The notes below the pieces were generated by a model. That model was not told the DNA's origin. It worked only from the letters and a program-made list of their open reading frames with translations, and ran no database searches. Of a stretch of 64,000 nucleotides of DNA, positions 1,480 through 45,381 are shown piece after piece. This DNA is from Halichondria panicea. Its lineage: Eukaryota; Porifera; Demospongiae; Suberitida; Halichondriidae. The stretch is from positions 4,333,182 through 4,397,181 of the forward strand of contig NC_087384.1 in assembly GCF_963675165.1 (NCBI RefSeq), given 5' to 3'. Both the position numbers and the translations under genes were made by a program. Each line of letters starts with the position of its first letter. The first letter of the stretch is position 1.

Positions 1480-2120
1480 CAAGGGCGTATGAAGAGAAGA
1501 GGGCATGCAACTACTATCTATCAGAAAACAAATGGGCGGGGTCTTATATCTAAAAATAGCATTGCACGTGCACCGTTTTTGTGCGTGCACGGTGAAGATA
1601 TACGGAAACTTACAGAGAAAGTAGCTATTCTAGCTAAGCTAGCTAAGCTAACATACTGCAGATGATTGTAGCTCTCTATACTAGTAGTAAATGATGCTAA
1701 CAATGCTCAGTGACACTAGAAAGTGCGTAGCATAGTCGTACTAGAAGCAACAAGCCAGAAACCACAAACTTTGAGTTGTTGCCTCAAATCCTTGGTTTCT
1801 TTGACTCCTGTCTTGATGTAGCAGGTATAGCAATCATAGTGTTAAACTACTACGACTCATAAACTAACAGGAGATGTTATACAAGAGAGATAAACGAGCT
1901 AATCGAAGAAAGTAGATAAAAAGTGCCGACTCAGCAGTTTGGATGGGTTTGGAGTTTTTACATAGAAAACATAAGCTCACGTGAATCTTAATTAATCGTG
2001 ACCAACCTCCTCTAGTGGGCGGTTGGCTAAGTATAGCATATCCTGCTGACTCATCAATTTTTTGACGCATACACAGTTTAAATTGTGAGTTGCATGCCCT
2101 CTTCTCTTCATACGCCATTG
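1480..2120. mobile_element. MITE, CAAGGGCGTATGAAG family, 7-bp TSD
   Basis: This 641-bp element has ends CAAGGGCGTATGAAGAGAAG and the near-perfect inverse (CCATTG instead of CCCTTG on the right). It is flanked by the 7-bp direct repeat GTAATAC at 1473-1479 and 2121-2127. Compared with its 237-bp sibling at 3447-3683, it carries about 400 extra bases (about 1605-2013). These resemble the interior and right end of a CAGAGGAGG MITE such as 7503-7971, so it is a nested or composite element. Confidence 0.8.
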
Positions 2121-2198
2121 GTAATACGGTATGTATGAAATTTGGAAGAATTCTGACAAATTATCCGTTTAGGTAATGTTGAATTCACATGGAATGGC

Positions 2199-2333
2199 AT
2201 AAAGACTACGTCATTATTAACTTTTTGGCTTCGTGTCCAACCTCCTCTGACATTATAGTAATACGGTATGTATGAAATTTGGGAGAATTCTGACAAGTCA
2301 CCCGTTTAGGTAATGTTGAATTCGTATGGCCTA
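2199..2333. repeat. Tandem duplicate of the segment split by the 1480-2120 MITE
   Basis: About 135 bases here repeat the block formed by 1416-1479 joined to 2128-2198. Both contain the right end of the CAGAGGAGG MITE and the flank starting GTAATACGGTATGTATG. The upstream copy is interrupted by the 641-bp MITE. The order of events is therefore CAGAGGAGG MITE insertion, then local tandem duplication, then insertion of the second MITE into one copy. Confidence 0.75.
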
Positions 2334-3439
2334 CAGGCATGTCAATAACTGCACCAACTTGTATTGCAAAGTCAGTATTTTCTGATCCCATGAAGATCCC
2401 ACCACAAAACTTATACAAGGCGGCAATAGTACCTAAAGACTAGTTTGGTAAAAAATAAAAAAATAAAGTCGTCATTTTTGTGTAATGCTTAATTAAAGGT
2501 TACAATAATAACCTTTGACCCTTTAACAAGTGCCCTCCCCCTTCAAGCACGTCACCTGAAAGGGGGCCATATCATAAAGAGTACGGTGGTACAGTTTTTA
2601 TCTGCCATAATTAATCATGGCAGAAGTTATGCTCTAAAAAGCGTAAGTGGGGTCACCGAAATTTATAAATTTTGGTGAATTTTCAAGGGCTCGCAACTAA
2701 GAAGCCATACGACACATGGGGCTAAAATTGGGTGTGGTTATATAACTTATATTCTTCTCTATTTAGTTGGGTGTGACCTGATGCATAGAAGAAGCTAGTT
2801 TAGCGAAGAATAAGAACTGTCTATAGGTTTAGACCAGAATAGCTCACAATTTAGAGACTAAATCGTGTTGCTTGCCTACTAGCTAGCTAACTGCAGCAAG
2901 ATTCAGAAGAAAGAGAGTGCTCAGCAAGATAATCAGCTATACACTAACCTCAGTGAGCTGAGCTGAGTATAGTAGAGATCCAGAAAAAGGGGGGGGGGGC
3001 ATTTGCCCACTTTGCCACCCCTTGACTACGCCACTGCACATAGACATGTGATACCTCACTGCGCATGCGCACCCGAGGCATAATTATACAATAGATAAGT
3101 ACGTACAGTACACAAGTATATTTTCTTCTCTTTTTTTTACAAACTCTTGTTATATTATAGATACTATTTTCTGTACTTAAATTCCCTTTTTAATTCTTAC
3201 AGACTATAATATGCGTTAGGAATTCGTTCCTTGTCAACAATTGCGAATGCAAACATATATTTCTAGCATAGCGCAGCTTGCACCACTCATTGTGCAGTAG
3301 TAGTAAACGCATAGCACGTCAGTATTTGTGTGTGACGTCTGCATTCTTATAAGAGTTATTCATGAACGGAACAACTTCTTGATAAGTTTATACTAATACT
3401 TTTCAGTAAAAAGGGTGTGGCCTCCAGTCTATGTACACG
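2334..3439. other. Non-coding, nothing recognised
   Basis: I see no exon with coding character on either strand. There is a short G homopolymer near 2989-2998. This lies downstream (left) of the last visible exon of the minus-strand ankyrin/Ig/Death gene, whose remaining exons are not in view. Confidence 0.4.
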
Positions 3440-3746: not shown

Positions 3747-6700
3747 CAAGATGGTGGTCCTTACGTATGATAGCCAGTTCTTCTTCAGGGACGTTGAGTT
3801 GTATCCCAAACCGTATGGGGTCAGTAAGAGTCTTCAACTCCACTGTCAAGGTGTGCAGGCTCCACTCTGGAACATCTGAGTGAACACAGAGGAGGTTGGT
3901 TAAATATTATACGAGGAATCAACATGCGTGCATAGAAAGAAGAAGAAAAGATACGGAAACTTGAAGAGAAAAGTATAGCTATCCTACTGAATAGCTAACT
4001 GCAAACAATCCTTATACTATAGTAGCCCAGAATCCAGGCAATCTGATTGGTCAGTACAGGGTTTATATTTCCCACATTAACATATAAATTCTCCTGTAAA
4101 CCTGTAACATCCACATGACATGGACATGGCTGTTCAATCTTTACTTGCACCATGCTTGCAGGCATGGTGTGTATTTAGTATATGCAGTTGTCCTTATTTC
4201 CTGCACCGTTTGTGCTTATACTCACGGGTGGGATGGGTTTGGGCCTAGAATTTGAGGTTACAAAGAAGAATCGTGATCAACCTCCTCTGGAGTGAACAAA
4301 AGTGTATTGATTACAAGTGAATTGCGAGTGCACAGACAGTGACTATACAGTGATACAGTGTACTGTATCACTGTATACACAGGGAACTTCCATAAAACGG
4401 ACACCATTGGGAAACAGTCCACTCCAAATGACATTCTGGTTTCTGGTCCTGAAGTTTCTCTAATTTGCGGGCGGCAGGCTATTGTCATTACGTCATTATT
4501 TGCTTGTTCCAACTTGTGTAAGAGTTATAACATGGGCACGAGGGATTGTATATGGTATATATATATTGCACTGAAGCACAAGGGCGCCAGCCCTGAGGGC
4601 TGAGTGCAATATACACCATGCACCCCGAGTGCACATGTTATAACTAGTTTATATCCCTAGCAACACAAAATACACCACAGCTTCTACAAATATTACTAAA
4701 GAGACTAGTCGCAGCTGCTTGCATCTTTGTTCAAAGACACCAGTATCTAACCGTTCAAAATTACTGTCATTGGCACGACAAATGGCTTGATTCACAAAAC
4801 GTTAGGCTCCTCGCTCGATGCTACAAGAGTAAAGCAGCCCCACCCCCCCCCGAACGTTGCAAAACACTCTCTTCTCAACACTGCTGCTGCAAAACAGCCC
4901 CATCCCAAAGACAAAGCTGCAGAGCAACTCGAGTAGCCCCACCTCAAACACTACTGCAAAAAAGCCGCTCTCAATTCTGACATGCCTCCAACCAGTGATT
5001 GTGTCCTGGATCCTAGGATCTAGGACCGTTCAAGCAGAAGTAATGAACTAGAGATATAATTATTTCTACTGTATATGCACATGCTTATATACATGCTTAT
5101 ATAATATAACGCGGCATTTAATTTTTGCTATGTAGATCATTAAATCCTCCTTTGTGTGTGGTCAGTGCAGAATATGAGATTTAGGCACCATATTGCACAT
5201 AGCAACAACATAGCAACGAGATATAAGTAATAAAATATTGAGATAGAAATCCAGCAATAAATCTAATGTGCATGCATGGGCGGTGGACCAGAAACCACAG
5301 TACAGTTGAGCCTCGATTCTCCGAACCCCAATCATCCGAATTTTCGATTATTCGGATGAAAGATTCGACCAAATATAAAAGCTTCAGCTTAGCTTAACAG
5401 TATAGCATGCTGCCTTGCTCTATCCACTGATGCATTATGTCCAGTCCAAAACTGGTACATTTGTAAAAGCTCTGGACATAATTCGCTGATTTTGCATGCG
5501 AATTATTGATGGGCATGGCTCATTTAGAGTCATTCTGAATATTTCAGCCATCCGGATGAGGTTGGGACATCAGGTGTTCGGATAATCGAGGCTCAACTGT
5601 ATTATTTGGAGTGCATGGCTTTATATATAGGGAGGTGGTCTTAGGTTTCGATTGCCATCCACATCAATGCTCTACGCTCTAACAAGTGAATCTTGGCTTC
5701 TCTATATAGGGCATACAAGGGCTGTATAGGGACGAGGTTTTCACTATTGTGTAAAAATAATGCATATCTCAGCAATAATTTTCTGCTGGTTCAGAGTGTG
5801 GCTGTTAGGGGCTGGCAGAATAATGTGCTGCCATAATTTTGAGAGTAATAGGCACATTTTTTGGTGAGAATTATGCTGGAGGTCAATCGAGTCAGTATAT
5901 AGGATAAATTTAAACTAGACTGTAACTAAAAGACATGCAGAACAGGCATGGATGCACCAAATCAAAGGGGTGGTGCTGAAGTTTAAATGGTCTAGCATGC
6001 CCGAAATTGTAGGTACGCTCCCCCCCACCCTTACAGATGTTAAATTGGGTCTTTTAGTATAGGAGAAATTAAGAAACCGATATATAATTATAGCATCAGG
6101 AGTGCATTCATTTAGTGACTAGTTTTTGATCTATAGCTGGCAATAAATAGCATTATAAGTAACCACTATTATGATATTATTGCTTAGCAACCAAAATGCA
6201 GGTTGAATCTGCGCATGCGCGATGCGGTTGCTTTGTCAACCAGAAGGATGCGTAGCAGGTTTCCCCCAGTTGAAGACGAGTTTAAGAGAAAGAAAACGGC
6301 TAAAAGACAAAGAAATAAGATTCTAGAACACCAGGAGAGCTTGCAGAAGGCTACTAAAAGATTTTGTAGAGAACAGACAAGAAAAAAAGACAAGAAAAAC
6401 GTTGACAACCAGCAACCCCTTTTGAAAATGGATAATTCTGACGGATAAACAGCGTGTGCTTGCTTTCTATCATGCTCCAGTGTATCAGAAGAAGAAACAT
6501 AGACCGCTATAGCCAAAGAAAAGTGTGACAACCATTTTGAAGCGAAACGACTTACAAGAGCCTGAAAAAGACTTAAATGGTGGTGCAGTACACTTCTACA
6601 TGTGCAATATTTCGCTCAAAGCATTCATTCCCAACACTGATGCCTGTTAGATGCATTAAATATGACTGCTAAACTGAACACTGACAACCTCCTGACCCTC

Positions 6701-9700
6701 AGCCTCACTGTAAAAGAGCAAAGAAGTTATACAGAGCATCAGAGAGCATCAAAAAACATGAAAGAGACTGATAAACATTGCATTGCATGATCATAAGTGT
6801 GTAAATTATTGTTTTTCTTGTTCTTTCACTGCTGAAAAACGTTTCATTCCAAATAAGAATCACTTCCTAGTGTGCAATAAAATAATACTTCCGGGTGTAC
6901 GATATGGAAAAATATCTGCACACTTGGTGATAAGTCACTTCCTGTGCAATTTGAATGTAAAACACTGATGTCAGCACTTATTAAAAAGCCTACATTATAC
7001 TCGATATGACTTAAATCAAGAGTACTACTCTTGCTTAAATTAATTGGTGCTTTTTGCTGTTCTTAACGCAACGCCATGCATACTTGCAACGTGTAATACT
7101 GAAGCAACGGTATGATACATTTCTTAATACGCTGACAAAACGGAAACGCTTCAAACGTTACTACGTGGATATATATTATACTACACGTAAACAGAATAGG
7201 AATTAACCTTTAATATAATTATTGATTGCTACTATACTGTAGATATAGGCATCCATGCAGAGCTGATATATAAGGCAACCCTAACTGGATCTATTATGTT
7301 ACAGTTCATTTTATAGTTCATTTACATCATTTAAATTCATATTATAAAAACATTCATATTGATCAGGAACTTGGAATAAAAGGACCTCATCCATGTCTCA
7401 CATTCTCTCAGCATGATCAGACAAGGTAACAGCATGCCCAGAGAGTCCTTACAGATGGATATCACCAGCTATATAGCTATCATGCACTGTACAAGCTAAC
7501 TACAGAGGAGGTTGGACACGCGTCATAATGGTTTACGGAGGAAATGTGTGTGCATAGAGAAACTTGCAGAGAACAGTAGCTATTCAGCCAAGTTAAAAGC
7601 CTGCAAGCGATTTTAGCACTCCATACTAGTAGTAAATGACGCTAAAAATACCCAGTGAAACTAGAAACTGAGTAGCATAGTCATACTAGAAGCAATGAGC
7701 CAGAAACTTAGATTAGTCACAAACATCGAGTTGTTGCTGCACTTGCCTTTGTTTTTTTTTTTACTCCTGTCTTGATGTAGCAGGTATAGCGATCATAGTG
7801 TTAAACTACTACGACTCATTAACTAACAGGAGATATAATACAAGAGAGATAGACAAGCAAGAATGGAAGAGTTAGGTAAAATGCTGACTCAGCAGGATCG
7901 AAAAGGATCGATTTTAAGCGTATTCATGGGATTATTGATGACTACGAATGACGCGTGTCCAGCCTCCTCTGAGCTAACTAGCTCATAGATAAACAAAATT
8001 AGCTGAATCAATTCTAAAATTACACTAATAATCTTCGCATAATTGGAAAGCGCTTCAATTCGAGTATAAAAAGCTTGCAGTTGAGCATGCGCTTAAAATA
8101 AAGAACGCTTATAATCGAGTATAAGCGCTAATAATCCAGTTTCTACGGTATGAACAAAATACTCACAGCTGGCAACAGTGTGGATGACAATCATCCGAAC
8201 AAAGTGAAAGCTGACACTAGCCTATATGGATGGCCACGCCCATAGACTCTATCCGAAGCTGCTGCAACAAATCTACAGCTCTGTCTCTAGTTAGCTAGGT
8301 ATAACAATACTGTACTTCTTCTAAATAAGGCGCCGCTTTTTAATAATTACCTTTTCGAGACTTAGTGTATGCAAAACAAGAAATAGCAATGATGGTGCCT
8401 TATGAGAGAAGTCTCCAGGTGGCGCCTTAATAGAAGAGGGTCTGTTTTAGAAGAAGTACGGTATATAGCTGTGTAGGACTTTAATGAATTTGTATTCTTT
8501 GTCTGTAACCTTAAGGTGACATATTTTCGCGTGTGCTATTTCTGCGAATGAGAGTAAAATCGCAAAAATGAGTACTCGCAAATAATTGGCCGCCCTATTG
8601 TTTTAATGTATCCAGATCGACATTTCGCAAAAAAATTATACCAGCAAAATGCACAAAACTGTAAAAACGCAAACAAATCTGTGGTGAGCCTTTTGTTTCA
8701 AAATGGTGATACAAAATACCATGTGTTGGTGTCCCAAAAATCAACTCAATTTTATCGACTTTATCTGGTAGGGATCGACTCGATGTGTTATAATCAACTC
8801 GATTTCATCTGGTAAGGATCGACTCGATGTGTTTTATCAACTCGATTCAAGGCCGCTGGGGGGAAAAGGTGAGTTTCAAGGGCGGCTTGATATCGAGGCT
8901 AATTATGGCTGTACTCTTGCAACAAAGGTGCTAGGCTCAGACAAGGCACTGAGACTCTTGAGGCCACAGGCAGGCCTACAGCAGGTCAGAGTAGCTAACC
9001 TTCCAGGCACGCCTGCAGAAGGTCACAGCAGCTTACTTGTGCTGGATCACAGTAATTAAATCACTAAATGCTTGTCTACTTGACTCTTGAGTTCATGAAA
9101 CAGAGCAAGTAGCTGCTGTGTGATCTCAGGCTGCACGCTAGAGTACAGCGACTACAGCCATATCAGGCCGCCCTCGAAACACGCCTTTCCCCCAGCGACC
9201 TGGAATCGAGTGGATCCTTACCAGAAGCAGTCGCTAAATCGAGTTGATAAAACACATCGAGTCGATCCCTACCAGATGAAGTCGATAAAATCGAGTTGAT
9301 AAAACACATCGAGTCGATTTATCCTTCCAGTTTGGGACACCAACACATGGTATTTTGTATCGCCATTTTGAAACAAAAGGCTCACCATACAAATCTACCT
9401 GTGAAAATATGTTACCTTAAGGTATTTATTCAGGATATTTTTCCGGTAAAAATTTCAGTTTAATGGGAAAATAATCGAATAACTTTGCGCATGTGGAAGC
9501 AGTTAGTAGCATGCAGGCCTCCTTTCTGAGGCCTTGTGAAGGAGGCTATATATCAAAGTGCGTGACTATTGCGGCAAATGTCATTTTTTGCATGCCTGTG
9601 CATGATATTTGCCACAATAGTCACGCACTTGTATGAAAACCACACATCATTTTTTTATAACAATGTGACGTAACAGGTGTGGTCCATGCAAGGTAAGCGC

Positions 9701-18367: not shown

Positions 18368-18442
18368 CAGAGGAGGTCGGACATCACTTGAACTTTCACT
18401 AATTATGACCTTTTAATGACATTCCAGGCCAAATTGCTTTTC
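18368..18442. mobile_element. Solo end of the 5.5-kb HIRAN transposon family
   Basis: From CAGAGGAGGTCGGACATCAC onward, about 75 bases are almost identical to the left terminus of the coding element at 39476. The similarity ends near 18442 and no matching right end was found. It is a truncated second copy of the family. Confidence 0.8.
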
Positions 18443-39466: not shown

Positions 39467-39598
39467 GCACCAAACCAGAGGAGGTCGGACATCACTTGAA
39501 CTTTCACTAATTATGACCTTTTAATGACATTCCAGGCCAAATTGCTTTTACGTTTTATGCTGATTCAGCACAAATAATGCTGACTCTAGCACAAATAA

Positions 39599-39611
39599 TG
39601 CTGACTCAGCA
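39599..39611. promoter_or_regulatory. Subterminal 13-bp palindrome of the HIRAN transposon (left)
   Basis: TGCTGACTCAGCA is a perfect inverted repeat around a central base. The same 13 bases occur near the right end (44902-44914) and in the MITE at 7882-7894, and degenerate versions precede it (TGCTGATTCAGCA and TGCTGACTCTAGCA at 39557-39590). It is a candidate transposase or host-factor binding site. It equals the consensus Maf/AP-1 element known in animals. Confidence 0.65.
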
Positions 39612-39691
39612 GTAGCGTCTCCTTTCGTTTCTGCATTGTGACAGAAACCCTAAACCAGTTGCATGCAGTTATATATATATATTAAGATCTG

Positions 39692-40258
39692 ATGGCTACT
39701 GGACCTAACCCTATGTCTATGAGCACCGACAGCGACAGTAGCAGTGAGGATGAAGGCAGCAATGGCAGAAACAGTGACAGTGACAGTGACCCTAACATTA
39801 ACAGTGACAGTGCTAGTGCTAGTGAGCCTGATAGTGAGCCAGAGGATGTTCGAGAGACAACATTAACACAGAGATGTCACAGACTAAAATTTAAGTGTAT
39901 TGGTAGCAAGAAGGAGCAAAGATACCAAGATGCTCTTCGATCAGCTCAGGATGTGCGACGGCTTGGACATACAATCCCTGTCTCATTATTCAAGGAACCT
40001 CTAAACCCTAGAGATGCACAAGCAATAGCCTTCAAATGTCAGTTGGATGGAAAATGGAAAACGATAGGATATGTCGTTAGTGAATTGTTAGATGAAGTCC
40101 ACACTGTAATGGATAATGGCAGAATAATATCTGTGGAGTTTGCCTGGATATCTTATGTTACTGACTGGAGATCAGGACCAGCATACTTCGCTGGTATATG
40201 GGTCGAGAAGAGGGGTGAGTGGTCAAACCTAGCTAAACGAAAAGCAAGTACAAGATAA
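39692..40258 (+). CDS. HIRAN-domain protein encoded inside the transposon
   Basis: This is a single-exon 188-residue protein. Residues 1-50 are an acidic, serine-rich low-complexity leader (runs of SDSD and SEPDSEPED). Residues about 58-175 form a HIRAN-like domain with the hallmark KEPLNPRDAQAIAF segment followed by GKWKTIGYV and a terminal aromatic/basic stretch (FAGIWVEKRGEW). HIRAN domains are known from Rad5/HLTF, where they bind 3' single-stranded DNA ends at stalled forks, and as stand-alone proteins in bacteria and phages. Here there is no helicase or RING domain, so an accessory role at DNA ends during transposition is inferred. An AT-rich TATA-like run (about 39669-39681) lies just upstream of the ATG. 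It converges with the transposase gene, with 146 bp between stop codons. Confidence 0.8.
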   Translation: MATGPNPMSMSTDSDSSSEDEGSNGRNSDSDSDPNINSDSASASEPDSEPEDVRETTLTQRCHRLKFKCIGSKKEQRYQDALRSAQDVRRLGHTIPVSLFKEPLNPRDAQAIAFKCQLDGKWKTIGYVVSELLDEVHTVMDNGRIISVEFAWISYVTDWRSGPAYFAGIWVEKRGEWSNLAKRKASTR

Positions 40259-40404
40259 CTGGTTATTGAACTTTATGTTATGTGTATTTATTTATTATGC
40301 GTTCATGAATCTTTTTAATCCCTTGTTGTGTTGTATAATTTGATTTTCATATAAATTATTGCTTAATTGAACACAATAAGAAGTATATAATGTTGGAGTG
40401 AAGT

Positions 40405-43400
40405 TTATTGAGCGTATGAGTGTTCAAATAGGTGATGTTGAGTGCTTTCCAGTGGTGGTGGCATTGGAATGGGTAAATTATGGAAGGTCATCCTAGTTGA
40501 ACGAGCACCAGATTCAGGGAGTGTTGCTCTTCCATACATAAGGTGAGCTGGTTGTTCTTTTCTTCGAACACGTTTCTTCCTCTTCTTTGAAGGTTTCTCA
40601 TCAAAGTGCGGTCTGCTTCCTTCATAAAAGCGGTCATGTGATGAAGAAAAGTAATAAAACCCCAGAGTTGGGTCTGACCTCTTGTCAAACTCGATGCACA
40701 CCTTCCTCCAGGTGTACCTCGCTTGCCGTAAGGTAAAGTGCTTTCCTGTCAAATCCCTCATGATTGAGAACATGCACTCAACATCATCAGTAGTGCTTGA
40801 GCGGGGATTCTCCATTGGCCTTCCAGTTTGGGCGTACTCTCGTCTTTTCCATTCAACACTTTCGATTCCTGTGGTGAGGGCATACACAATCTCCCTGGTG
40901 AATCCTAGGACAGTTACTTTCCTGTGTGGAAAAATTACCACTAGATCATTTTTGCTTCAATTCACATCAACAGTAAACTTTAGGTTACCTTGTAACTTCC
41001 ATCAAACTGAAGTCGTACTGGGCTGTATGCCAAGGCATCAGCTCATCTAAAATGAGATTCAGGAGGTCATAGTTGTACTTTGACCTCTGGAGAGATGACA
41101 GACCTCGCTCGTCACAAGAGCGCCTCCAATTCCTGATGACTCTAACGTACTTCTCTTCATACTCATATTTATTTTTTCTCATGAACAGTTCAACACCCTC
41201 AGAGAAAAGATTTTCTGCATCTTGGACTGACTGTTTTCTCTGGCCTGTCAATGCTGGGTACGTTAGTCCAGACTCGTCATCATATAATGCCTCATGAAAT
41301 CTTTCAACCCTGATTGGTTGTGGGCCTCCTTTCCTTGTGCACTGGCACACTCTCTATATAGAAGTATATTAAATAAAAACACACCCAAGCTAGTGAATGT
41401 ACTGTAAAAAAACATATATACCTTCATAATGTGTGCAAAATCTTCTCTCTCGTGGAATTCTTTGCCGGTAATGGGATGAATTTCAGGAACATACATGTGA
41501 GTAGAGAATGGCACACCCTTTTCAACCCAATGGCACACTTGATACTTGTACTCCATCTGAGAAAGAATGGCTCTTAGCTTGTCACCTTTGTCTTCTGCCC
41601 TCTGATCTACACATAATTATTATACGTACTTTCACGTAATTTTGGTTGGTCATTATTATCATACCTGAATTATATATAACATCATACCTGACCATGGGCA
41701 TGGAGTATATCCTGATGGTACTGTACGCAGTCTGAGCCTCCCTATCCAATCATCTGTATCGATGCCAGCATTTTTCCATCCCCAGATTTCAGACAGGACT
41801 CTCATAGGAACAGCTGGGTTTCCTTTCACAGCTTGAATACTACCATCTGGCATTTCTGAATGGAAATCATGCATGCGTACAATAATATTATACTGATGTA
41901 CAGTACATATACAACTTTACAAACCTGTAGGAGTCAACATGTTCATCATAGCGGTTACAGACATTTTGTCAAACTTCTTTTTTGCTTGTGATTTGATTTC
42001 AAGCACTGAAAGGGGACGAGTATATCCTTTTACCCTCATAGTGTTATACTCTCCATTAGAAAGGAAACCTAATAAAGAAAATGCACATGAACACACATAC
42101 ATGTAGAAGGTTCACAACAAGCACCTACCACTGACATCCATGTTTCTGTCTTTCATTGCTATCACAATTTTGTTGAGAATTGACCTCATTTGTGCAACAC
42201 TTATCCCAACGTAAGAAATACATTGAATCGGCAGGGCATAAGGCTTCTTTGACCGTGACTCCGTGCTTAGCAAAATGACGAGAATATGTGTAGCTGCTGT
42301 CCTCTTGTGCTTGTACAACCCTGTCAAGAATTACAATACTTAAATCTTATGTACTTAATACACTTACCTTTGACAAACTCCAACAATTTCTTGTGTACAA
42401 GTGTTAACTTCTTTGCGACATTAAGAGCGATGATATCGGCGTCAGCATCCTCTAGCACATCTTTTAGTGTTGCCAAGTCAGTGCGTAACACTCGACCACC
42501 AGCAGACAGCTTTTGTAGATCATCTACATTCCATGCAAGGTTTAAGAGAGTTTTCTCATGTGAGACGCCACTTCGAACTTTGGCTGAATATGCATCATTG
42601 CACTTCTTTAAAGCTGCAAGGAAACTATCCATCATACTTACTACGTATTTGGAATGTACATGTACCTTCAACAACGAAGTTAACATCTCCTTCGAGTTTG
42701 CCATACTCTTCATGGACAACGGTAACTAGAGCTGGACGTCTATCAACTATGGACTGGTTTGTGCAAAGCATATCAATTGCAGAACGACGTGTACGATACA
42801 TGTGGTAGAGTTCCTGGACAGCTTCAGTAGCATAATCTGCATCTCCGTTCCATTCAAGCCGTACAGACTCCTCCAAACCACTCACGATATCACAACCGTC
42901 AGCCTTGATCCACCATTTAGCCTCAGGATGCACCTCTACAGCATGGTCTAGTGTAGCCATCTGAAAAAAAAAGTTGAGTATAAAGAAACTTCAGAAAATT
43001 AAATTTACCTGAATGTTCCAAGAATTAGAGAACTGGGTATTCACAATGTGCCTTCTCATTGTGCGCTCACCTAGGGCAGGTACATTCACTCGAGCCTATG
43101 AGATCAATCATACAGATTTACACACATGATATTATACATGTACCTGTATGGGATCCAAAAAAACTACGTTTTCTTGTCCAGTTTGAGTTGTTGAGACCTG
43201 ACTCCACATTGGACCACATAGCATTTTTGAGAACTTAGTCCCAAATAGAGAGTACATGCTAACAAGCCACTTCTCGTAACCTTCTGAACACACAGCCTGC
43301 ATGTGTATAGGTTTAAATTGAACAATAATAAGTCTATACGCACACCTATTTAATACTTACATGAGTTGCATTTGTAGAAGTAAAAAAAGTCGTCATGTAC

Positions 43401-44859
43401 TGAAGTAACCCAAAAGGCATCCTTGATACTGGAAAGCGTGACTCGTTAGAGTTAGGTCGGAGTGTACCTAATCCTTTGGCAAGATGATACAATACGTTCA
43501 CTTTGCCGTTAGAGTCCAAGTGCTTCATTGCAAGCAGTGTCAACTCAAGAAAGTTACCATCCACGGCAACTTTATAGAAGCTGGTAGCGAGTTCACAAAA
43601 CAGCTCACTGATTAATTTCAGCTGGTCTGCAGGTGGAAGGTTTAGAACCTGCCGTTTGAAGTTCTGAAACTTGTCAACCATTACGAGATTAACCTGGCAT
43701 TCTCCAGTATCAACCTACATGGATAAAATAATAGTACACACAGCCTGTACATGATATACTTCAGTACGTACATAAGAGACACTCAGAGCTTGTGGCTCTG
43801 AAGATACTCTTGCAGGGAGTGTCATGAGGGGTGTTGTACTAGGGTGTTTAGAACGTGTAGCCGTGAGTGCTATTTCTGCTTCCCTCGGTGCTGTGTAGTG
43901 TTTGCTGAGAACCTTCCTCACTCGAGAGCTACACGCCAAACCTAGTCATATACATTTTAGTCATTATTTTAAAGTATTTTAACACACACATCCATGCAAC
44001 GGTATTTATTTCACTCACTGCTTCGCAATGGTTCTTGGCTTCTTTGGTGTACAAACAGAGCAGCTAACTTCCAGAAATTCTCAGACATTGCAGGCCAACT
44101 ATTGCTAGGTGTTGATAATAGAATAAACTTTACAATTGCTATATCTTCCTTTAATTTCCATTTCGATGCAGTAGTCGGAGAGGGTGTACACGAGGCACCG
44201 GATTGTTGAGCAACTGAGCTTGTGCTGTTTTTCACTGTGAGGGGAAGTCTTCGACTGCGGGGTCGCTTCTCCTGCTGCTTGGGTGTTATTCCAGTAGGAG
44301 TGGACAACTGTCGACATCGCTTTCTTTCACCACTAGCTCTAGCTCTGTCGACATGTTCAGCCATGGCTAGCTGGTTAGTGCTGCTCGGAATTCGACTCTG
44401 GGGTCGCTTCTCATGCTGCTTGGCCTTGGCCGCCCTGGGTACGGGTGTACATATTACATAAACACTGGCAGTAGGAGTGGACAACTGTCGACATTGCTTT
44501 GTTTCATCAATAGCTCTAGCTCTGTGTTCAACCATGACCAGCTGGTTAGATCTAGTGTTGCTCCTGAGGGGAATTCGACTCTGGGGTCGCTTCTCATGCT
44601 GCTTGGCCTTGGCTGTTACTGTACATATTACATCAACACTGGCAGTAGGAGTTGAAAACTGTTGAAATAGCTTTCTCTTGGCTCTGTGTTCAACCATGAC
44701 TAGCTGGTTAGATCTAGTGTTGCTCCTGAGGGGAATTCGACTCTGGGGTCGCTTCTCATGCTGCTTGGCCTTGGCTGCCTTCCGTGTTACATCAACACTG
44801 GCAGTAGGAGTTGAAAACTGTTGAAATAGCTTTCTCTTGGCACTGTCACGTTCAGCCAT
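40405..44859 (-). CDS. Transposase-like protein, 13 exons, ~1,238 aa
   Basis: Exons are 44019-44859, 43772-43941, 43361-43714, 43144-43296, 43009-43095, 42666-42960, 42368-42613, 42129-42320, 41925-42068, 41688-41855, 41422-41606, 40989-41353 and 40405-40921. All phases agree, and most introns are 48-80 nt. The first exon has about four repeats of a roughly 50-residue basic module (QFSTPTASVDV, KQHEKRPQSRIP), then a SANT/Myb-like segment (WKLKEDIAIVKFIL). The central part holds WWIKADGCDIVSGL (aspartates near residues 556 and 559). The C-terminal part has SSTTDDVECMFSIMRDLTGK (Glu near 1115), then a basic tail. These are candidate DDE residues, but the middle aspartate is unassigned. The stop codon TAA lies within an AATAAA poly(A) signal. 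The start is the ATG at 44857-44859, just inside the right terminal repeat. Confidence 0.82.
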
Positions 44860-44901
44860 AGCTGGCTAGCTAGCTAGGATCAGGATTATGGTTTACTTTA
44901 C

Positions 44902-44914
44902 TGCTGAGTCAGCA
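44902..44914. promoter_or_regulatory. Subterminal 13-bp palindrome of the HIRAN transposon (right)
   Basis: TGCTGAGTCAGCA is the exact reverse complement of the left copy. It sits about 100 bases from the right terminus and 43 bases upstream of the transposase ATG, so it could serve in both end recognition and transcription. Confidence 0.6.
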
Positions 44915-45381
44915 TTATTTGTGCTAAGTCAGCATAAAAAATGCAATTTGGCCTGGAATGTCATTAAAAGGTCATAATTAGTGAAAGTTCAAGTGATGTC
45001 CGACCTCCTCTGGCACCAAACAAAGATCACCTAGCCACACCCACAGTGGGCTTTATTTAGAGATTTTGAAAATGAAAAGAAATTATCATGGAAGATTTAT
45101 CCACTCCTGGTCACAGCTATCGTAATAGGTAATGCTTCATGTTATATCTCTACCATACCATACTAAACCTTTCCTCCTGTTAACACAACAGTTGTCTTGT
45201 TTCGAGTTTAAACAGAGAGTAAGCTTAGGGCAGTGGTAGCTACTATGCATTACCAGTTTCATGAGCTCAATAAATGGCTGGATGCAGCTAGTGCTCATAT
45301 TTAATTTGATTAGAGCCATATTGTTCATCTGTTCACTGTTTTGTCCACACCCAATGCCCCAGGTCTCCTACGACACAGGGT

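Follow-up and report, generated by a model that had tools for sequence, protein, structure and literature searches.

P elements generate 8-bp target site duplications, encode a transposase with an N-terminal THAP domain and have ends that begin 5ʹ-CA. In hAT elements, the duplications are also 8 bp long and the ends read 5ʹ-CAG, while MuDR/MULE elements are marked by 9-bp duplications and long inverted ends. HIRAN is known as a reader of DNA 3ʹ ends from a fork-remodelling enzyme. In more specific terms, the HIRAN domain of HLTF binds the 3ʹ-OH at a single-stranded DNA end, and the N90A-N91A substitution disrupts HIRAN function, according to the accessible part of PMC11237066. The catalytic triad of the P-type transposase THAP9 is given as D304, D374 and E613 in the available text of PMC8230255.

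The element described here lies in the genome of the sponge Halichondria panicea, in a stretch of 64,000 nucleotides (contig C8, positions 4333182-4397181) that was analysed as a whole and is termed the window; the host genome searched comprises 131 Mb in 39 contigs. It is probably an autonomous cut-and-paste DNA transposon, deeply branching and allied to P elements, with a HIRAN protein as partner.

Boundaries and gene content of the element

The element occupies 5,537 bp (window 39476-45012). Its two genes face each other: HIRAN is encoded in a single exon, and the opposing open gene has 13 exons and 1,244 codons. Its parts are the following:

39467..39475, unstranded: left 9-bp target site duplication GCACCAAAC, an exact repeat
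39476..39614, plus strand: left terminal inverted repeat, beginning CAGAGGAGGTCGGAC, from arm comparison
39692..40258, plus strand: HIRAN gene, one exon, 188 aa plus stop, from open ORF, Pfam and fold
40405..44859, minus strand: transposase-like gene, 13 exons, 1,244 aa, from splice-site search and relatives
44899..45012, minus strand: right terminal inverted repeat, from arm comparison
45013..45021, unstranded: right 9-bp target site duplication GCACCAAAC, an exact repeat

The inverted ends begin CAGAGGAGG. Their arms (39475-39549 and 44939-45013, each one base wider than the element) match over 75 nt at 99%, the first 70 nt of the element being identical between left and right, and further inward come 34 nt at 94% and then 28 nt at 100%. 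The duplication GCACCAAAC is exact at 39467-39475 and 45013-45021; from the base composition of the window, the probability of a 9/9 match by chance is 5e-6 per comparison. A first-pass annotation of this DNA had described a complete two-gene transposon with matching inverted ends, an exact 9-bp duplication, an open HIRAN gene and an open large gene, and each of these parts is borne out. Recent activity, which the annotation had read from this integrity, is plausible in view of the 70 identical end bases, a second copy that is 95-97% identical and many derivatives. In a genome search for an empty site of the window copy, the joined flanks matched only their own two halves, and no empty site was found.

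Copies and short derivatives

A search with the left end matched at least 43 places, including both ends of some elements. Copy counts are lower bounds because 40 of 265 left-end candidates were scored. Twenty short copies were fetched; 13 have both ends in the stretch, and the other 7 were dropped before the counts. Exact 9-bp duplications flank nine of the 13, one duplication matches at 8/9 and three at 5 or fewer positions, although a one-base shift brings one of these three into agreement. Elsewhere in the window family, two further copies have exact duplications (GTTCCAGTC and GCTGCAAGA), one matches at 8/9, and another, at 7/9, is present at two loci with identical flanks. The second long copy, on contig C9, is the one that is 95-97% identical; it has lost the first 15 bases as well as element bases 1851-3255, and no duplication was seen around it.

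The copy L016 is located near the end of a different CAGAGGAG-type repeat. When its flanks are joined, 37 other places match across the junction and contain the 9-mer once, and most of these matches run only 5-10 bases past the junction because the repeat ends there.

Other CAGAGGAG elements are present in the window, three with exact 9-bp duplications (ACATTATAG, GAGTGAACA and AGCTAACTA) and one pair at 7/9. The three with exact duplications are short and lie at 1153-1464 (or 1153-2249), 3887-4289 and 7503-7971, the first having two possible right ends with the same duplication. At 18368 there is an isolated left end belonging to the family of the main element, with no right end up to 24000 and no second copy of its left 9-mer up to 26000.

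Full-length relatives in the same genome

A protein search with the window transposase returned 92 matches, each to a single exon. From these, an initial set of nine loci and a later set of ten were extracted, and the HIRAN ORF was examined in the initial nine. The alignment used below (A2) holds the window protein and six relatives whose transposases are 40-48% identical to it; 13 further loci, decayed or near-duplicate, were omitted. Four of the initial nine loci have both ends, L019, L021 and L027 yielded one end each, and none was found in L024 or L025. Exact 9-bp duplications accompany both ends in L020, L023 and L026 (CTGATTTCC, GGAGCTTCC and GTTGGGAGG, respectively), and L022 has both ends and a duplication at 8/9. 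Every end found in the relatives begins CAGAGGAG.

The pairing of the two genes recurs: a HIRAN-like ORF lies convergent beyond the transposase end in 8 of the 9 loci, and none was found on the opposite strand beyond the transposase end in L024. This layout is partly built into the search because only that strand and place were inspected, and the 8 loci represent about six distinct lineages because L019, L020 and L021 are near-identical.

Predicted structure of the transposase-like gene

The predicted exons, all on the minus strand, and one notable part of the first are as follows:

Exons 1-5: 44859-44019, 43941-43772, 43714-43361, 43296-43144, 43095-43009
Exons 6-10: 42960-42666, 42613-42368, 42320-42129, 42068-41925, 41855-41665
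Exons 11-13: 41601-41422, 41353-40989, 40921-40405
44161..44859, minus strand: low-complexity region encoding the N-terminus in exon 1, containing direct repeats spaced about 140-185 nt, outside the trimmed alignments

No stop codon interrupts the 13 predicted exons. The border between exons 11 and 12 was picked among 8 open combinations because it reads KRVCQCTRKGGP, like KRMATSTRxGGP of the relatives, whose own gene models were obtained by spliced alignment guided by the window protein or by another relative. Ten of the 12 introns of the window gene recur, column and phase alike, in one or more of the 8 relatives. The intron at residue 337 occurs in none of the 8 relatives compared; for the one close to residue 891, three relatives have a counterpart within 4 columns but in a different phase. 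Such shared positions support the predicted splicing of the large gene without amounting to proof.

The N-terminus of some relatives looks Myb-like, by eye only and without support from any tool.

Candidate active site

Positions of interest in the large protein, all on the minus strand, are listed below:

43051..43071: GERTMRR codons, paired with the S-RTLRD block of P elements, from block comparison
42898..42900: candidate first catalytic Asp, residue 556, in WWIKADGCD, from position and conservation, not hhalign
42049..42057: codons 784-786, Asn-Gly-Glu, with Asn784 aligned to the Asp of the P-element DGA, from hhalign
41431..41442: DxxH motif, Asp945-His948, paired with the P-element DPPH in a non-significant second match
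41030..41032: Trp1059, a conserved position that follows the DxxH motif and precedes the last Glu, from residue tally
40777..40779: candidate last catalytic Glu, residue 1121, in DDVECMF, from block comparison and tally

Conservation was tallied over 20 rows, which include near-duplicates and the 13 loci omitted from A2. The first Asp is kept in 15/16 rows and the last Glu in 14/14; within the DxxH motif, the Asp is kept in 14/15 and the His in 15/15, and the Trp of the insertion is present in 17/17. Both motifs that the first-pass annotation had offered as candidate DDE elements, WWIKADGCD and TTDDVECMF, are present and conserved, and KADGCD and DDVE are plausible as the first and last acidic sites. 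The second site is less regular. At the presumed position of the second catalytic Asp of P elements, 18 rows hold N (10), D (6), E (1) and I (1), with Asn in the window protein, and a Glu follows two residues later in 16 of the 18. Judged by spacing, D374 of THAP9 would be the Asp of DGA. We propose Glu786 as a candidate replacement for the second catalytic Asp, with the Asp of the DxxH motif as the alternative. A single-sequence structural model of the transposase (pLDDT 35.9) was discarded, and any hint of an RNase H-like fold comes from profile blocks.

Possible affinity to P elements and comparison with other superfamilies

The window protein has no Pfam family over cut-off (best E 0.066), which agrees with the earlier statement that it bears no recognised superfamily signature. 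PF21787, which with PF21789 (TNP-like) we take to be P-type, matches 3 of 6 members of the family at E up to 10, the window protein not among them; its best match, in a relative, reaches E 6.1e-5 and, at 23.8 bits, falls just short of the cut-off (24.6). It is the only Pfam family found in more than one of the 6 members. Other families appear in one member each, the best being a coiled-coil type, ALIX, at E 0.0023. When the genome is searched with PF21787, P-type elements lead, and L026, L025 and L027 match weakly (E 0.05-0.16).

Many P-type elements reside in the same genome, as seen from 61 PF21787 matches (E up to 10), eight of them with equal score; the places matched include L038, L040 and L044.

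The family was also compared by hhalign with six P-type ORFs from the same genome, so that P is nearest only among the groups tested. The top match pairs ATHILVILLS...VSGFLSNGE with VFVLMVRG...VLFVTADGA (E 0.0034-0.0039, probability 8.6-9.5%), and none of 200 column shuffles equals its block score of 32.8 (the shuffles average 17.6 and peak at 28.1). A second match, EREDFAHIMKR with FIADPPHLIKT, is in the right order and lies inside the shuffle range (score 22.0, E 0.099); a third (E 0.3) is not collinear. Scores as high as that of GERTMRR with SDRTLRD arise in 1 of 100 shuffles of a region picked after inspection. For TTDDVECMF with SQDPLENYF, the corresponding figure is 3 of 100 in a region picked after inspection and 13 of 100 with the whole protein. 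The first Asp was left unaligned by hhalign between the family and the P-type ORFs. A PDB profile search gave three matches at E 0.11 and worse, none relevant, and a P-type ORF of the same genome had no PDB match at E 0.001. In viral and prokaryotic contigs, 38 and 57 stretches, respectively, match a peptide pattern, and none encodes a relative.

The element thus resembles the P-element superfamily, which includes Drosophila P transposase and THAP9, in one significant beta-strand block and three weaker ones in the same order, in the PF21787 match just under cut-off in a relative, and in ends that begin 5ʹ-CA. It is unlike them in several respects. Exact duplications are 9 bp in the window copy, 9 of the 13 short copies and 3 relatives, whereas P elements have 8 bp. 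No THAP domain was matched along the full length of the window protein (E up to 1); the relatives' models begin after the part matching window residue 235. At the D of the P-element DGA, the family carries Asn or Asp, and 230 residues separate the first Asp from Glu786, with 159 more to the DxxH Asp, compared with 99 and 41 in a P-type ORF of the same genome. Finally, the element contains HIRAN as a second gene. On the whole, we read the large protein as probably a deep lineage allied with the P superfamily that has extra insertions and an altered second catalytic position. The element had earlier been left unassigned to any superfamily; this remains true at the level of Pfam cut-offs, but the weak similarity points to the P-element type, PF21787.

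The strongest rival, whose chances we put somewhat below even, is that the family is a separate superfamily within the DxxH-bearing group (hAT, P, MuDR, Kolobok and Dada), its likeness to P reflecting shared RNase H features. The weak P scores would suit this explanation, as would the 9-bp duplication, the HIRAN partner and the missing THAP match that set the element apart from P. So would the C/DxxH motif, which is common to the five superfamilies according to the accessible part of PMC9587614. It is opposed by the finding that the sole Pfam family in more than one of the 6 members is a P-type RNase H profile, and by the one block beyond 200 shuffles, in an hhalign comparison that covered P only.

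Within that group, the element's ends match the 5ʹ-CAG of hAT, but hAT duplications are 8 bp, and hAT transposase domains are absent from the Pfam matches of the window protein and 6 members. hAT shares the C/DxxH motif (PMC9587614, available part), and the conserved Trp in the insertion has a counterpart in Trp319 of Hermes (PMC8230255, available part). Kolobok, also of the C/DxxH group, likewise encodes a second protein; unlike the element, it has TTAA duplications and 5ʹ-RR ends, and its second protein is a different one (PMC9587614, available part).

That the element is already catalogued in Repbase or Dfam is possible, though we rather doubt it. A family this abundant, with many derivatives, is one that repeat annotators would meet. 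Nevertheless, no transposon of this kind appeared among the open-access literature matches listed, which are mostly without subscription papers and include the accessible parts of PMC10045372, PMC9587614, PMC8230255 and PMC11237066.

The HIRAN protein

The HIRAN gene is open from 39692 to 40258, and its product has an acidic Ser/Asp-rich N-terminus followed, in the structural model, by a HIRAN-like fold from about residue 61. Against Pfam HIRAN, the window ORF scores E 1.7e-4 and 21.8 bits (cut-off 24.7); HIRAN is the best Pfam match in 6 of 6 scanned proteins and exceeds the cut-off in 1. The model, built with 7 unspliced ORFs, reaches pLDDT values of 79-96 by block beyond the N-terminal part, starting at residue 61. 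In VIA, where chance often produces a best Z of 7-8, five HLTF HIRAN entries match at Z 8.3-8.8 over 103-107 residues and 3.3-3.8 A, Rad5 at 7.3, an HLTF NMR entry at 6.7 and the next unrelated chains at 6.2 and less. One protein, lp_0118, ranks above HLTF (fold Z 10.6 in VIA; profile E 0.16), and plain Foldseek returned no match to the HIRAN model at E 0.001 or better. The HIRAN assignment is nonetheless well supported by Pfam together with the predicted fold.

The profile of the HIRAN alignment (A4) matches HLTF at E 0.34, and the match includes the NPYD stretch. All 7 rows of A4 share N105 and D108, which align with the N and D of NPYD; counting from N90-N91, these two residues would correspond to HLTF N91 and D94. 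The element's protein differs from HLTF in having Arg at the Tyr of NPYD in the window copy and in standing alone in a transposon, without the helicase part.

HIRAN is found in 18 genome places, 3 in relatives fetched with the transposase and 15 elsewhere. This distribution, and the failure to find HIRAN in L024, are what one might expect if HIRAN had been captured from the host and played no part in transposition. Such a capture is improbable, as the gene occupies the same place in 8 of 9 loci, or about six distinct lineages, and its invariant N105 and D108 align with HLTF NPYD.

Three of the 15 other places were inspected. L071 (2730-3365) has a HIRAN ORF resembling that of the element's family and an exon-like stretch upstream, likely a relic, with no transposase match among the matches listed. 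The HIRAN place in L072 lies among unrelated-looking genes. In L073 (2986-3993), a HIRAN match is fused, within one ORF, to sequence resembling Ulp1 protease by eye, and a pogo-like-looking ORF is nearby on the other strand. Among the relatives, L027 (5361-6182) and L019 (5947-6450) have a coding-looking further N-terminal part upstream of HIRAN that is absent from the window copy.

Proposed mechanism and significance

The earlier hint that a 9-bp duplication is MULE-like was not upheld: a Mutator-like element would share the duplication length, the long inverted ends and the C/DxxH motif also known in MuDR (PMC9587614, available part), but no MULE family is among the Pfam matches of the window protein or the 6 members up to E 10, a search in which HMMER filters drop most weak matches, and we regard this identity as very improbable.

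For the favoured P-allied cut-and-paste transposon, the large protein would act as the transposase and bind the CAGAGGAGG ends. An RNase H-type active site, putatively Asp556, Glu786 or a neighbour, and Glu1121, would cut these ends and join them to target strands staggered by 9 bp, and gap repair would then yield the 9-bp duplication. Given the precedent of HLTF, the most likely role of the HIRAN protein is at 3ʹ ends. It may bind exposed DNA 3ʹ-OH groups, either those of the excised transposon ends or those at the 9-nt target gaps, and once bound may shield the 3ʹ ends or recruit repair. A bolder proposal, and in our judgement an unlikely one, is that the family constitutes a new eukaryotic cut-and-paste superfamily, characterized by CAGAGGAGG ends, 9-bp duplications, a dedicated HIRAN protein that holds 3ʹ ends during transposition and an RNase H active site whose second catalytic Asp is replaced by a Glu two residues on.

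A transposon with its own HIRAN would mean that a mobile element brings along an end-binding repair factor, and it would offer a compact two-gene system for testing a 3ʹ-end binder in excision or gap repair. Additionally, the family bears on the diversification of P-type and hAT-type transposases and on how far the second catalytic position tolerates change.
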